The notes under the pieces are model-generated. The model ran no database searches and was not told the origin of the DNA. It saw only the letters and a program-made list of their open reading frames with translations. Shown piece by piece: positions 11,404 to 21,348 of a stretch of 36,731 nucleotides of DNA (its first letter is position 1; every line of letters begins with the position of its first letter). The stretch comes from Thermococcus sp. (lineage in GTDB: Archaea > Methanobacteriota_B > Thermococci > Thermococcales > Thermococcaceae). The translations under genes and the position numbers were made by a program. The DNA lies in assembly GCF_027052235.1 (NCBI RefSeq), contig NZ_JALUFF010000048.1, positions 1 through 36,731 of the forward strand. The letters are read 5' to 3'.

Positions 11404-11790
11404 ATGCGGAACGAAGCAAGGCTCTTGTGGGAGCAGGCTCTGGAAGACCTGAAAACTGCAGAGGCTTTGATTGAGGTTAAAAGGTATTATGCCAGCGTGT
11501 TCTTTTCCCAACAGGCTGCGGAAAAGGCGTTGAAGGCCCTTTACATTGAATTAAAGAGAGACTTCCCTCCTAAAACCCACAGTCTTCTCAGGCTGGCCGA
11601 CGAGCTGGAGATCAAAGATGAGGACATTATAGACGCCCTTCTTGACCTGAATCCGGAGTACATCGTGACGAGATACCCAGACGCTGCAAACGAAGTGCCC
11701 GCTAGGATTTACAACGAGAGAATGGCCGTTGAGCATCTTCAAAAGGCCAGGAAGGTGATCGAGTTTTGCAGGGAAAAGCTTGGACTTTGA
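11404..11790 (+). CDS. HEPN-domain protein, toxin of a HEPN/MNT pair
   Basis: A 128-residue all-helical HEPN protein with ARLLWEQALEDLKTAEAL, then YYASVFFSQQAAEKALKALY, the substrate-pocket helix typical of the family. The predicted RNase motif is R52-x6-H59 (RDFPPKTH). HEPN proteins paired with minimal nucleotidyltransferases act as toxins that cleave RNA or are neutralised by AMPylation. ATG 11404 has no ribosome binding site, but a TATA-like AAGTTAAATT about 27 nt upstream makes a leaderless mRNA likely. The antitoxin gene starts within its stop codon. HEPN before MNT is the usual gene order. Confidence 0.9.
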   Translation: MRNEARLLWEQALEDLKTAEALIEVKRYYASVFFSQQAAEKALKALYIELKRDFPPKTHSLLRLADELEIKDEDIIDALLDLNPEYIVTRYPDAANEVPARIYNERMAVEHLQKARKVIEFCREKLGL

Positions 11791-12080
11791 AAGTTGCGAA
11801 GGTCATGAAGGAACATTATCCAGATGCAAGGATAGTTTTCTTCGGCTCCCGAATTAGGGGAGACTACCTCAAGGACAGCGATTATGATATCATCGTTGTC
11901 TCAAAGGCCTTCCGTGGAAAGCACTTCACCGAGAGATCGAGCGACGTTCTGAGACTCCTCTGGAAGGCGGGAATAATTGGAGACTTTGAGATTTTATGCT
12001 ACACACCCGAGGAGTTCGAGAGGAAGAAAAAGAGGCTGGGGATTGTGAGAGAGGCCCTGAGGGAAGGGATTGTTATTTAA
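11787..12080 (+). CDS. MNT-type nucleotidyltransferase, antitoxin of the HEPN/MNT pair
   Basis: A 97-residue minimal nucleotidyltransferase. The polymerase-beta-type active site reads FFGSRIRGDYLKDSDYD, with G20-S21 and the metal ligands D32 and D34. MNT antitoxins neutralise the neighbouring HEPN toxin, in studied cases by AMPylating it. TTG 11787 is proposed as start because it overlaps the upstream TGA as TTGA and begins the conserved domain; a TTG at 11766 and ATG 11805 are alternatives, the last being very close to the active site. The third catalytic Asp is likely in GDFEILCYTPEEF. Coupled translation with the toxin is expected. Confidence 0.88.
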   Translation: MKVAKVMKEHYPDARIVFFGSRIRGDYLKDSDYDIIVVSKAFRGKHFTERSSDVLRLLWKAGIIGDFEILCYTPEEFERKKKRLGIVREALREGIVI

Positions 12081-17033: not shown

Positions 17034-18356
17034 TCACCTCAACTTGTCAAACAGCAGGTTGAGGGCAATCTTAATCCCCTCAAATATGTTGGTGCCCTTC
17101 TTCATGGAGTATTCGGTGTAAACGGCCCTTATGGGAACCTCGACGATCCTGCATCCTGCCTTGGAGGCCTCGATGATTATCTCGCTCGAAACGGCGTAGC
17201 GGTCGCAGGTTATCCTTATCTTGGACAGGCACTCGCCGCTCAGGCACCTGAGCCCGCTCTGACTGTCGCTGACGTACTTCCCGGCGAAGATTGCAGTCAC
17301 GAAGTCGAGAACGAAGTTGCCGAACCTCTTGACGAAGGGCATCTCGCTCGTGTCACCCTTGAGCCTTGAGCCGACGGCGAAGTCCGCCCTGCCCTCAGCA
17401 ACCGGCCTCATAACGCGGAGCGCATCCTCAACGAGGTGCTGGCCGTCGGCGTCGAAGGTTAGCACAATTTTCGCCCCCCTCCTCAGGGCGTAGGCGAAGC
17501 CGGTCCCAAGTGCACCGCCCAGCCCCCTGTTGACGAGATGCCTAAGAACGTGGACGCCGTAGGACCTCGCTATCTCCTCAGTCCTATCTCTGGAGCCGTC
17601 GTTTACGACAACAACCTCATCACGCCTGAAGTACTTCAGGAGCTCCTCAAGGACAGAGCCTATGGTTTTCTCCTCGTTGTACGCCGGAACAACAACGTAG
17701 CTTGAGAAGAGCCTTTCGAGGAGGGCCTTCAGCTTCGGCAGGTTCTCCACCTCGAAGTCGGGTTCCGCCTCGACCTGGAAGCTCATCCTTCCGGCGTTGT
17801 GGCCCGTTACCAGAACCGTTAGGGCGCCAACTTCTCTCGCCGGAATCACGTCGTAGCCGTGGTCGCCTATGACGAGGGTCTTCTCCGGCGGAACACCGAG
17901 GGAGGAGATAATCCTCCTCAGCTGGCCGGCACTGGGCTTCAGTTCCTCCGGAGGGACATCGTCCCTTGTGGAGATTATGTCGAAGTAGCCGATTAGACCG
18001 TTCATCTCAAGGGCTTTAACGGCGGCACTTCTGGAACTCCTCGTCATGATGGCGAGCTTCACGCCCCTATTCTTCAGGAATTCGAGGAGCTCAGTGGCCC
18101 CTTCAAAGGGGAAGCTCTCCTCCATCCTTTCTGTCTCCAGTCCAACGAGGATTGAATAAAGCTCCTCGAAAGGTATCCCCGTTTCCCTCGAAATCCTCAG
18201 GAGACCCTCATACATTGGGGTTAGGTCACCAACGACTTTCTCATCTATTCCCATTCCGATGAGCCTCTTCCTGAGCTCTTCCTTTATCTCGCTGAAGGGC
18301 CTTTTGGCCCCGATGAGGGTGCCATCGAGGTCGAAGACGGCCAGCCTTATATCCAT
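17034..18356 (-). CDS. HAD phosphatase fused to a GT2 glycosyltransferase
   Basis: A 440-residue two-domain protein. Residues 1-212 form a HAD hydrolase of the phosphoglycolate phosphatase type: D9-x-D11-GT, TRSS near 105, K140-P and VIGDHGYDV with D165. From about residue 219 a GT2 family glycosyltransferase begins: VVVPAYNEEKTIGSVLEELL, VVVNDGSRDRTEE and the metal-binding D302-A-D304 in FDADGQH. It resembles dolichyl-phosphate mannose/glucose synthases but lacks C-terminal membrane helices. The neighbouring DUF2304 protein may supply membrane attachment. ATG 18356 has GGTGATAGC upstream. No stop or frameshift lies at the domain boundary, so the fusion is real in this sequence. The link between phosphatase and sugar transfer is not known. 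Confidence 0.9.
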   Translation of the reverse strand: MDIRLAVFDLDGTLIGAKRPFSEIKEELRKRLIGMGIDEKVVGDLTPMYEGLLRISRETGIPFEELYSILVGLETERMEESFPFEGATELLEFLKNRGVKLAIMTRSSRSAAVKALEMNGLIGYFDIISTRDDVPPEELKPSAGQLRRIISSLGVPPEKTLVIGDHGYDVIPAREVGALTVLVTGHNAGRMSFQVEAEPDFEVENLPKLKALLERLFSSYVVVPAYNEEKTIGSVLEELLKYFRRDEVVVVNDGSRDRTEEIARSYGVHVLRHLVNRGLGGALGTGFAYALRRGAKIVLTFDADGQHLVEDALRVMRPVAEGRADFAVGSRLKGDTSEMPFVKRFGNFVLDFVTAIFAGKYVSDSQSGLRCLSGECLSKIRITCDRYAVSSEIIIEASKAGCRIVEVPIRAVYTEYSMKKGTNIFEGIKIALNLLFDKLR

Positions 18357-18386: not shown

Positions 18387-18402
18387 ACCAAGGTGCCTTG
18401 GT
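18387..18402. promoter_or_regulatory. Perfect inverted repeat in the 5' region of the GlcNAc-1-P transferase gene
   Basis: ACCAAGG-TG-CCTTGGT has perfect 7-bp arms. A TATA-like GGTTTATTTTT at 18370-18380 puts transcription start close to or inside the repeat. It also overlaps both possible ribosome binding sites (18391-18395 and 18400-18403). It could be an operator or an RNA hairpin hiding the ribosome binding site. Confidence 0.45.
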
Positions 18403-18409
18403 GTCAGAG

Positions 18410-19312
18410 ATGCTTGGAACGGCTTTCTTTATAGCTTTAATCCTCTCGGTCACGCTGACGCCCTACGTGGCCGGGCTCATGAAAAAGGCCGGTGTTGTGG
18501 GGCGGGATATCCATAAGCTTGAACAGCCCGAGGTTCCCGAAATGGGGGGCCTCGCTGTGGTAATGTCAGTTGCCCTCGCCACGTCATTAGTCGGTGTTGA
18601 TGGCGTACCCGTTATTATCTTCCTCCTCTTCGCCCTCATCGGTGTTCTCGATGATCTTACGGCCCTAAAGCAGTTCCACAAGGTTCTACTGTCAATCCTA
18701 GTGGCCCTTCCGGTGGCACTCGTAAAGGTCCCGGATTGGGTGAGCTTTCCCGGTTATGCCATCAACCTCAGTGTGCTGTATCCCCTCTTCGCCATCCTCT
18801 TCGTTGTCGGCTCGGCAAACCTCGTGAACATGCTGGCCGGCTTCAACGGCCTTGAGGCCGGGACGAGTGCCATAGCCCTCGCCTTTCTGGCCCTAATAAC
18901 CGGGGGCACCGCGAGGGAGTTAGCGCTCGCCGGCCTTGGGGCGTCCCTCGGGTTTCTACTCTGGAACAGGTATCCAGCGAGGGTCTTTCCCGGCGATACG
19001 GGAACACTTTCACTGGGGGCCCTCATAGGGCTCGTGGGAATCCTTGGAAAGGTCGAGTTCTACGCCGGCCTGCTCCTCATCCCCCATTTCATGGACTTCA
19101 CGATAAAAGCAATAGGGGTGCGCTTCGGTGTCAGGAAGCACGGGCGCACCGAAGTTTTGCCGGATGGAACCCTTAAGGCCCCGCCTTACCCGAGCTTCCT
19201 CGGGCTGATAATGAGAAAAATCAGGGTGAACGAGCCGAAGCTCGTCGCGATGGTCTGGCTCATTGAGCTTTCCCTTGGTCTTCTCGTCCTCTTTCTGACT
19301 CGATTACCTTGA
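18410..19312 (+). CDS. UDP-GlcNAc:dolichyl-phosphate GlcNAc-1-phosphotransferase family (AglH/Alg7/MraY-like)
   Basis: A 300-residue polytopic enzyme of the glycosyltransferase 4 family. It transfers a sugar-1-phosphate from a UDP-sugar to a polyprenyl phosphate, the first step of N-glycan lipid assembly. About ten hydrophobic segments are visible. Family motifs include PEVPEMGGLAV near the start, LIGVLDDL with the metal-binding DD, ANLVNMLAGFNGLEAG and RVFPGDTGTLSLGA. The start is ambiguous: ATG 18410 has GGTG with 6-nt spacing and begins just before the first helix; GTG 18401 has AGGTG with 5-nt spacing. Divergent from the HAD-GT2 gene. Its last 53 nt overlap the end of the opposing cas6-like gene. 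Confidence 0.9.
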   Translation: MLGTAFFIALILSVTLTPYVAGLMKKAGVVGRDIHKLEQPEVPEMGGLAVVMSVALATSLVGVDGVPVIIFLLFALIGVLDDLTALKQFHKVLLSILVALPVALVKVPDWVSFPGYAINLSVLYPLFAILFVVGSANLVNMLAGFNGLEAGTSAIALAFLALITGGTARELALAGLGASLGFLLWNRYPARVFPGDTGTLSLGALIGLVGILGKVEFYAGLLLIPHFMDFTIKAIGVRFGVRKHGRTEVLPDGTLKAPPYPSFLGLIMRKIRVNEPKLVAMVWLIELSLGLLVLFLTRLP

Positions 19313-20018
19313 CCATCCCGAAGCCATACCTCGTTTTTTCTCCAAAGCCGTTCTCGTAGCCGAGCTTCGCTATCTCCTCGGAGCCGGAATACCTGAAAAC
19401 CATGAGGGAGCCCCGGTAGTAGACGTTCCTGACGAGTATCCTGACGGGCTTGAACTTTATGACCTCGATTCTGAAGTCCTTGTTGGGTGGCATCTCACCG
19501 TAGAGGGTAGAGTACCTGAGGAGCATCACCTTGCGGAGCTTGTCCTGGAACATGGGGTCGTCGGGATATAGATCCCATACCTTCATCTTCCCGTCCACGA
19601 GCCTGACCGTCCTCACGAGGATGGGGCTGAGGGTGGAAAAGAGGGAATTGCCCTTAAGCTTTGGCTCCCTGAGGACTCTAACGTCCTCCGCTATAAAGGT
19701 CGCGTCCTCTATTCTAAGCGTTGGGCTGTCTATGAAGCCCTCGCTTATGGCCTTTATGACCTCCGGCGAGTGAGACGAGACGTAGAGGGAAACGTCATCC
19801 GAGAGAACCCTGATGCCCCTCTCCGGTACTATCTCCCTCTTCCTTATCATTATCCTAGAGAAGGTGAAGTAGTCAACCTGACTCGCCTCGACTTCTCTTG
19901 CAAGCTCGGGGGATACTATGCTTATCTTCTCAAGGAGCTGGGTGTAAACGTCGTAGTTATAGTTAAACGGCAGAAGTGTGTCATCTTCAGCGGGCCTAAG
20001 TTTAATCTCCACTCTCAT
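19260..20018 (-). CDS. cas6: Cas6-family protein lacking the canonical catalytic residues, orphan
   Basis: A 252-residue RAMP protein matching Pyrococcus Cas6 along its length: an N-terminal ferredoxin-like fold, VLREPKLKGNSLFSTLSPILV in the middle, and the Gly-rich loop GYENGFGEKTRYGFGMVKV at the C-terminus. Cas6 cuts CRISPR repeat RNA. By alignment with my recollection of P. furiosus Cas6 (Tyr31, His46, Lys52), this protein has Lys31 in place of Tyr and no His before His83, its only histidine. That resembles the non-catalytic Cas6nc described from P. horikoshii. No other cas gene or CRISPR array is in the window. ATG 20018 follows GGTGG. It converges on and overlaps the GlcNAc-1-P transferase gene by 53 nt. 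Confidence 0.88.
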   Translation of the reverse strand: MRVEIKLRPAEDDTLLPFNYNYDVYTQLLEKISIVSPELAREVEASQVDYFTFSRIMIRKREIVPERGIRVLSDDVSLYVSSHSPEVIKAISEGFIDSPTLRIEDATFIAEDVRVLREPKLKGNSLFSTLSPILVRTVRLVDGKMKVWDLYPDDPMFQDKLRKVMLLRYSTLYGEMPPNKDFRIEVIKFKPVRILVRNVYYRGSLMVFRYSGSEEIAKLGYENGFGEKTRYGFGMVKVIESERGREDQGKAQ

Positions 20019-20157
20019 TCCACCACCCCATGTTCTACACTATACCCTAGTAAGTATCGAAAGTTAATAAGAATTTCGCGATTGATTGGACAGGATGTTA
20101 ACCCGGAAGTGGATAGAGTTAAAAAGGCTCCAATATTAATCTAGTTAGGTGAGAGAC

Positions 20158-21348
20158 ATGAGCATCGAGGATGCAAATTTCAACGAGGGTTACGATGACT
20201 ACATCACCTTCCTGAAGAGGCGAATAAGACAGCTTGAACTCCAGGTCAGAACCCTGGAAGCGGACAAGGAGAGGCTTGAGAGAGAGCTCTCTCGCCTAAG
20301 GATGGAGATGTCGAGGCTCAGACAGCCACCGGCCTTCGCCGGAACGGTTATAGAGCTACTCGACGATGACAGGGCCATAGTGCAGAACTACAACGGGCCA
20401 CGCTTCGTCGTGAGGATAGCCCCCTGGGTGGAACGCGACAAGCTCAAGCCCGGTTCGAGAGTTGCCCTCGACCAGAGGACAATGGCCGTCGTTGAGATAC
20501 TCCCGAGCGAGAAGGACCCGAGCGTTCTGGGCTTCGAGGTCATAGAGAGGCCAAACGTGACATACAACGACATAGGTGGCCTCGACAGGCAGATACAGGA
20601 GCTCAGAGAGGCCGTCGAACTGCCCCTCAAGCACCCGGAACTCTTTGAGAGAATTGGAATCGAACCTCCCAAGGGAATCCTCCTCTACGGCCCACCGGGG
20701 TGTGGAAAGACCCTGATGGCGAAAGCAGTGGCAAACCACGTCAACGCAACGTTCATCCGCGTCGTCGGTAGCGAGCTCGTGAGGAAGTTCATTGGCGAAG
20801 GCGCCCGCTTAGTCCACGAACTATTCGAGCTGGCCAAGGAAAAGGCTCCGACCATAATCTTCATCGATGAGATAGATGCTATCGGAGCCAAGAGAATGGA
20901 CGAAACAACGGGCGGGGAGAGAGAGGTCAACAGGACACTCATGCAGCTTTTAGCCGAGATGGACGGCTTCGACCCGCGTGGAAACGTCAAGGTTATAGCG
21001 GCCACCAACAGGCCCGACATCCTTGATCCAGCGTTACTCAGGCCCGGACGCTTCGACAGGCTCATAGAGGTTCCACTCCCAGACTTCAGGGGAAGGCTTG
21101 AGATACTCAAGGTTCACACGAGGAAGATGAACCTCAGGAACGTTGACCTCAAAGTTATAGCCGAGCTCACAGAGGGAGCGAGCGGTGCAGACTTGAAGGC
21201 AATAGCGACAGAGGCAGGAATGTTCGCCATAAGGGACAGGCGCGACTACGTCACCCAGCACGACTTCCTGAAGGCAGTCGAGAAGGTTCTCGGGGCCGAG
21301 CAGAGGCTCGCTCAAGCGATAGCGATGCACGAGGTCATGTACGGCTGA
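20158..21348 (+). CDS. pan: Proteasome-activating nucleotidase PAN
   Basis: A 396-residue AAA ATPase that unfolds substrates and feeds them to the 20S proteasome. Domains: N-terminal coiled coil (about 15-57), OB fold (about 60-120) and AAA domain with Walker A GPPGCGKT (178-185), Walker [11 protein letters not shown], arginine-finger region RPGRFDR and the aromatic-hydrophobic pore loop FIGEGA. The last three residues are Met-Tyr-Gly, an HbYX-type tail that opens the proteasome gate. ATG 20158 follows GGTGAGAGAC; an in-frame ATA/GTG region at 20149 is rejected. The 139-bp divergent region upstream also serves the cas6-like gene. A T-rich terminator follows. Confidence 0.98.

Follow-up and report, generated by a model that had tools for sequence, protein, structure and literature searches.

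An orphan Cas6 of Thermococcaceae, probably catalytically dead and with a cellular role outside CRISPR

A stand-alone Cas6 gene in the window (the whole 36,731-nucleotide stretch of Thermococcus sp. DNA analyzed here) probably encodes a domesticated, catalytically dead Cas6, likely RNA-binding, with a cellular role outside CRISPR; we put the probability of this reading at about 0.6. It draws, at the level of sequence, on the fold of the protein, its place in a single clade, the loss of the catalytic triad, a near-universal presence, strong purifying selection, and persistence without cas genes. Catalytic Cas6 of the Pyrococcus furiosus (Pfu) type is the endoribonuclease of CRISPR pre-crRNA and cuts repeat RNA 8 nt from the 3' end. 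Non-catalytic Cas6 proteins were reportedly crystallized around 2012 and are said to have been regarded as binding repeat RNA for a purpose not then understood. The kind of protein is already known from those structures, and its distribution is the new part: our comparison suggests that Cas6nc belongs to the core genes of an entire archaeal family and is kept under proteasome-ATPase-like constraint where CRISPR is gone.

The window encodes a Thermococcus ortholog of Pyrococcus Cas6nc

By every test applied, the window ORF is a real Cas6-fold protein. It starts with ATG and is translated to 252 aa:

19260..20018, minus strand: cas6nc, non-catalytic Cas6 paralog, 252 aa, without the Y/H/K triad (Pfam, NCBIfam, and PADLOC Cas6 matches; ortholog of PDB 3ufc and 3qjj)
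19308..19349, minus strand: retained Gly-rich loop GFGEKTRYGFGMVK, aa 224-237 (translation and alignment)

The protein matches the Pfam families Cas_Cas6_C (3e-28) and Cas6_I-A (4e-17), NCBIfam TIGR01877 at 150 bits (1.1e-43; cut-off 58.65 bits), and the PADLOC Cas6 profile at 283 bits. Among PDB sequences, its best match is 3ufc (313 bits, 1.1e-92), followed by 3qjj (PH0350; 299 bits, 2.5e-88) and PfuCas6 (118 bits). An AlphaFold (AF2) model with a mean pLDDT of 92.9 lies 1.5 Å from 3ufc (TM 0.92/0.96), is similar to 3qjj (TM 0.91/0.95), and is less close to the catalytic PfuCas6 structure 3i4h (TM 0.82/0.89). Two tandem RAMP/ferredoxin-like domains and a C-terminal Gly-rich loop are present, with TM scores of 0.82-0.92 to Cas6 structures, so that the fold and loop named in the first-pass annotation are borne out. 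In the tree, the orphans form one clade with 100/100 support, apart from the catalytic clade and containing PH0350 and 3ufc. The window protein, a stand-alone gene product without the triad, is the Thermococcus ortholog of the crystallized non-catalytic Cas6 of Pyrococcus (PH0350 "PhCas6nc"; P. furiosus 3ufc), and the link to P. horikoshii Cas6nc drawn earlier is upheld by PDB sequence match, structure comparison, and tree alike.

The catalytic triad is lost throughout the orphan clade

We aligned 47 orphans with 22 catalytic Thermococcaceae Cas6 proteins and outgroups. Y, H, and K stand at the PfuCas6 Tyr31, His46, and Lys52 columns in 22/22 catalytic paralogs and in 0/47 orphans; not one orphan has the respective Tyr, His, or Lys at any matching column. 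The Tyr31 column is occupied by L, V, I, or M, the His46 column by E (38), Q (4), S (4), or K (1), and the Lys52 column by D (43) or G (4). The corresponding codons in the window are:

19932..19934, minus strand: Leu29, at the PfuCas6 Tyr31 position (alignment)
19887..19889, minus strand: Glu44, at the PfuCas6 His46 position (alignment)
19872..19874, minus strand: Asp49, at the PfuCas6 Lys52 position (alignment)

The description of the gene as an orphan Cas6 without the catalytic Tyr and His therefore holds, and the first 82 residues are indeed free of histidine (the sole His is residue 83). The Lys reported at residue 31 is present but is not the counterpart of Tyr31. We rejected it as a substitute, since a two-residue offset in the alignment puts Leu29 there; Lys31 occupies a separate helix position as a conserved basic residue (K in 47/47 orphans, R in 21/22 catalytic paralogs). 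The acids that mostly replace the active-site His and Lys would be expected to disfavor a scissile phosphate there. Four basic residues (K31, R55, R59, and R61) are invariant in the 47 orphans. K31, R61, and K228 are basic residues that have been kept, and R55 and R59 are fixed in the orphan clade, whereas catalytic paralogs usually have Leu and Glu at these two positions.

The absence of His alone is no proof of inactivity, as Sulfolobus Cas6 cuts without one (PMC3652601). SsoCas6 depends on Lys25, Lys28, Lys51, and Arg231 (PMC3652601), and an orphan nuclease whose active site had likewise relocated to a Lys/Arg network (K31, R55, and R59) would be consistent with the invariance of these residues. 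We consider such a nuclease improbable because the Lys kept by the Sulfolobus enzyme, Lys51, equivalent to PfuCas6 Lys52, is Asp (43/47) or Gly (4/47) in the orphans. The His46 column, mostly Glu, Gln, or Ser, also speaks against it, and PhCas6nc has been called inactive (PMC3727216) and PfuCas6nc non-catalytic (PMC3652601). Moreover, the active site of close relatives is of the Y/H/K and not of the Sso type. We examined 34 relatives from outside Thermococcaceae, counting the 5yi6 chain, among them proteins of Archaeoglobi, Methanocaldococcus, Theionarchaea, and bacteria; 31 have Y-H-K exactly, and three carry a single change (H replaced by R in L085, Y by C in L095, and Y by F in L098). Within the sampled sequences, loss of all three triad residues is confined to the orphan clade.

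The host has a second, catalytic Cas6 in a type I-B locus

The window has none of the short-period repeats that typify a CRISPR array, and the host carries cas1 and a second cas6 on a different contig (C65 of G000), in agreement with the earlier statement that the orphan has no array or cas gene nearby. This is the one other cas6 found in the host. Its product is catalytic, 34% identical to the orphan, and sits in a type I-B operon with Cas8b, Cas7, Cas5, Cas3, Cas4, and Cas1, adjoined by a repeat array. Further host arrays are found on C27, C50, and C84, and the host CRISPR repeat RNA is 5'-GUUGCAAUAAGACUUUAGGAGAAUUGAAAC. Because the host has a catalytic type I-B Cas6 and arrays, the orphan is not needed there as a processing enzyme. 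Catalytic Cas6 is encoded with cas genes or arrays, whereas the orphan is flanked by a glycosyltransferase gene and by PAN or other housekeeping genes.

The orphan persists in genomes without detectable cas genes

Of 94 Thermococcaceae genomes, 89 encode the orphan at full length, and 72 of the 74 good ones have it intact; only G026, where the gene is split by an inversion, and G059, where it was not found and the genome is 90% complete, lack an intact copy. Catalytic Cas6 is present in about 64 of the 74. It is missing in eight (G015, G020, G031, G039, G057, G058, G079, and G090), interrupted by stops in G050, and represented only by a partial match in G028. Searches of both plasmids and viral contigs returned no copies of the orphan, and a mobile or viral origin was rejected.

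Five good genomes without catalytic Cas6 keep the orphan intact (G020, G039, G058, G079, and G090); one (G020) is a closed chromosome and four are drafts, from which cas loci can drop out in assembly or binning. Cas1, type III RAMPs, and Cas7/DevR were not found in these five, and Cas3 searches returned only sub-cut-off helicases. We dropped G015 and G031 from the CRISPR-less set, as G015 keeps cas1, cas4, and cas3 and G031 has a type III locus with a divergent Cas6-like ORF (L077:19261-19890) and the second repeat family, GTTTCCGTAGAACNNTATTGTGTGGAAAC.

With three mismatches allowed, main-family repeats number six in G020, one in G039 (a relic), 11 in G058, two in G079 (equal to the control), and nine in G090; the second family has two matches in G020 and none in the other four. 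Small arrays remain in three of the five genomes; neither family forms an array in G039 or G079. The solitary degenerate repeat of G039 (L081:9835-9862) lies beside an acetyl-CoA synthetase-like gene (L081 9943-10650) of the kind that also flanks the host cas locus (L003 11847-12554), and so marks a deleted type I-B cas locus.

The remaining small arrays, at L079 (G020 C1:157195-157554), L083 (G058 C34), and L080 (G090 C2), belong to genomes in which no cas genes were detected. The G020 and G058 arrays are near the same Maf-like gene, which suggests fossil arrays at a shared site.

These genomes bear on the main rival, according to which the orphan is a CRISPR accessory that binds but does not cut host pre-crRNA or crRNA; it would chaperone or store this RNA or compete with catalytic Cas6, and the arrays concerned may be ones that several effectors share. 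Pyrococcus orthologs do bind repeat RNA (PMC3727216), PDB 3qjj is titled "One RAMP protein binding different RNA substrates", most Thermococcaceae have arrays, and the Gly-rich loop is retained. A crRNA chaperone is weakened because the orphan persists without CRISPR, kept and constrained in the absence of cas genes and, in G039 and G079, of arrays as well. The orphan is also more widely retained than catalytic Cas6 and was inside a cas locus at none of the loci examined. We therefore regard a CRISPR accessory as unlikely. Some of the CRISPR losses may be recent, so that retention of the orphan could be lag. Retention under strong constraint where cas genes are gone nevertheless favors a role outside CRISPR defense, as the first-pass annotation had proposed.

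The orphan is constrained like the proteasome ATPase

Constraint on the orphan is close to that on the neighboring proteasome ATPase and stronger than that on catalytic Cas6. Pairwise NG86 omega in close pairs is 0.01-0.09 for the orphan versus 0.07-0.21 for catalytic Cas6. For pairs that include the CRISPR-less G079, G058, G090, and G039, orphan omega is 0.010, 0.024, 0.014, and 0.026, respectively (dN 0.002, 0.021, 0.032, and 0.050); each pair has a partner with full or partial CRISPR and dS is near saturation in several, so omega does not isolate the CRISPR-less branch. Where PAN lies in the same stretch, its omega in such pairs is 0.028, 0.015, and 0.025, and its dN is 0.011, 0.026, and 0.030. 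Orphan omega thus matches that of PAN in these pairs; orphan dN is somewhat higher than PAN dN and exceeds that of neither glycosyltransferase neighbor in any of the four. The pair of the window and G057 is less constrained (orphan omega 0.089).

Neighboring genes and upstream signals

In the window, cas6nc lies between two genes and is preceded by two conserved signals:

18398..19312, plus strand: convergent GT4-family (GlcNAc-1-P transferase-like) gene, its 3' end overlapping cas6nc (Pfam PF00953; synteny)
20149..21348, plus strand: divergent PAN proteasomal ATPase gene (Pfam AAA and Prot_ATP_ID_OB; synteny)
20063..20078, minus strand: conserved BRE/TATA-like promoter CGAAATTCTTATTAAC of cas6nc (upstream alignment of 22 orthologs)
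20023..20029, minus strand: Shine-Dalgarno-like GGGGTGG, conserved in most orthologs (upstream alignment)

The pan and glycosylation genes named in the first-pass annotation both adjoin the orphan here, as Pfam matches confirm, but pan does not accompany the orphan everywhere. It lies divergently upstream in most g1, g2, g5, and g6 loci and does not adjoin the orphan in g3 (Pyrococcus-like) and g4 loci, which argues against a general functional link. The GT4 gene is the usual neighbor in all six genera, overlapping or abutting the cas6nc 3' end. This linkage is broken in G020 and G030, where cas6nc is kept without the overlap, and we rejected the overlap as the cause of retention. Neither neighbor is a safe guide to cas6nc function. 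The promoter-like block and the GGGGTGG motif suggest that cas6nc is probably expressed on its own. An Rfam search around cas6nc gave only a sub-threshold chance match.

Two other features of the window are recorded here. A fused HAD hydrolase and GT2 glycosyltransferase protein (17034-18356) is encoded beside the GT4 gene across most of Thermococcaceae, and adjacent ORFs at 11404-12080 resemble, by eye, a HEPN/minimal nucleotidyltransferase pair, likely a toxin-antitoxin module.

In G026, which is assembled as a single contig and retains both catalytic Cas6 and type III genes, cas6nc is cut in two by an apparent ~23 kb inversion (L053/L054; C1:1235368-1235691 and 1258622-1259065), either a natural loss or an assembly error. 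An apparent 11-residue overlap of the fragments had suggested a duplication; they share no long repeat, and we attribute the overlap to alignment over-extension. As the gene is split in this genome, it is not strictly essential.

This break, the orphan position, and the lost catalysis would fit a decaying, functionless leftover of some former cas locus that survives by chance and through overlap with the glycosyltransferase gene. We find such a remnant hardly credible given intact genes in all but two of the good genomes, an omega near that of PAN, a conserved promoter, and survival in G020 and G030 despite the broken glycosyltransferase linkage.

A proposed role in cellular RNA biology

We propose that a type I Cas6 gene became fixed outside any cas locus in the Thermococcaceae ancestor, and that the catalytic Tyr, His, and Lys would then have been lost while the gene was kept as a core gene. 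By analogy with the Pyrococcus orthologs and repeat RNA, the cleft that separates the two RAMP domains of the protein may bind unstructured RNA without cutting it. The relevant RNA would be cellular, and Cas6nc, instead of taking part in crRNA maturation, would serve as an RNA chaperone or in post-transcriptional regulation. That the window protein binds RNA, which RNA it binds, and what it does are inferred from the Pyrococcus orthologs and from its persistence where CRISPR is missing. PhCas6nc binds the 5' part of repeat RNA without cutting (PMC3727216), and the first-pass suggestion of a structured RNA ligand is not supported, as the homologs bind unstructured repeat RNA (PMC3727216). The fuller proposal, that Cas6nc is a family-wide, essentially core domesticated protein of Thermococcaceae, out of CRISPR and serving cellular RNAs as a general chaperone or post-transcriptional regulator, has in our judgment an even chance of being right.

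We found neither core-gene status nor decoupling from CRISPR described in the searchable literature, outside which the original structure papers lie, and we do not claim priority; for PF0393, PH0350, and TK2251/TK2253, nothing relevant turned up beyond PMC3652601 and PMC3727216. If the proposal is true, Cas6nc would be a clear example of how ordinary cell biology can recruit a protein of CRISPR RNA processing. The purpose of the dead Cas6 would then become directly testable, above all in species without CRISPR. Thermococcaceae include genetically tractable species, among them Thermococcus kodakarensis and Pyrococcus furiosus.

Comparison with known Cas6 proteins

The closest known counterparts are the two Pyrococcus orthologs. 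PfuCas6nc (PDB 3ufc) is the best PDB match by both bit score and structure, yet only about 57% identical to the window protein. PhCas6nc (PH0350; PDB 3qjj, 3qjl, and 3qjp), 55% identical and similarly close in structure, belongs to the same clade and has also lost Y/H/K. It differs in belonging to the g3 (Pyrococcus-like) group, in which PAN is not a neighbor, and in having Ser/Gly rather than Glu/Asp at the former His and Lys positions.

Catalytic PfuCas6 (PDB 3i4h and 3pkm) and the host type I-B Cas6 share the two-RAMP fold and the Gly-rich loop with the orphan; unlike it, they keep Tyr31/His46/Lys52, belong to cas operons, and are less constrained. Sulfolobus solfataricus Cas6 (PDB 3zfv and 4ill) resembles the orphan in having no active-site His (PMC3652601), but it keeps the Lys51 equivalent, cuts, and is a distant Foldseek match (TM about 0.5). 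The closest same-phylum relative outside Thermococcaceae is a Theionarchaea type I-B Cas6 (G114, L075), 40% identical, which shares Y20, R136, K163, and S204-L205-M206 with the orphan and differs from it in retaining Y/H/K and in being encoded in a complete type I-B cas locus.
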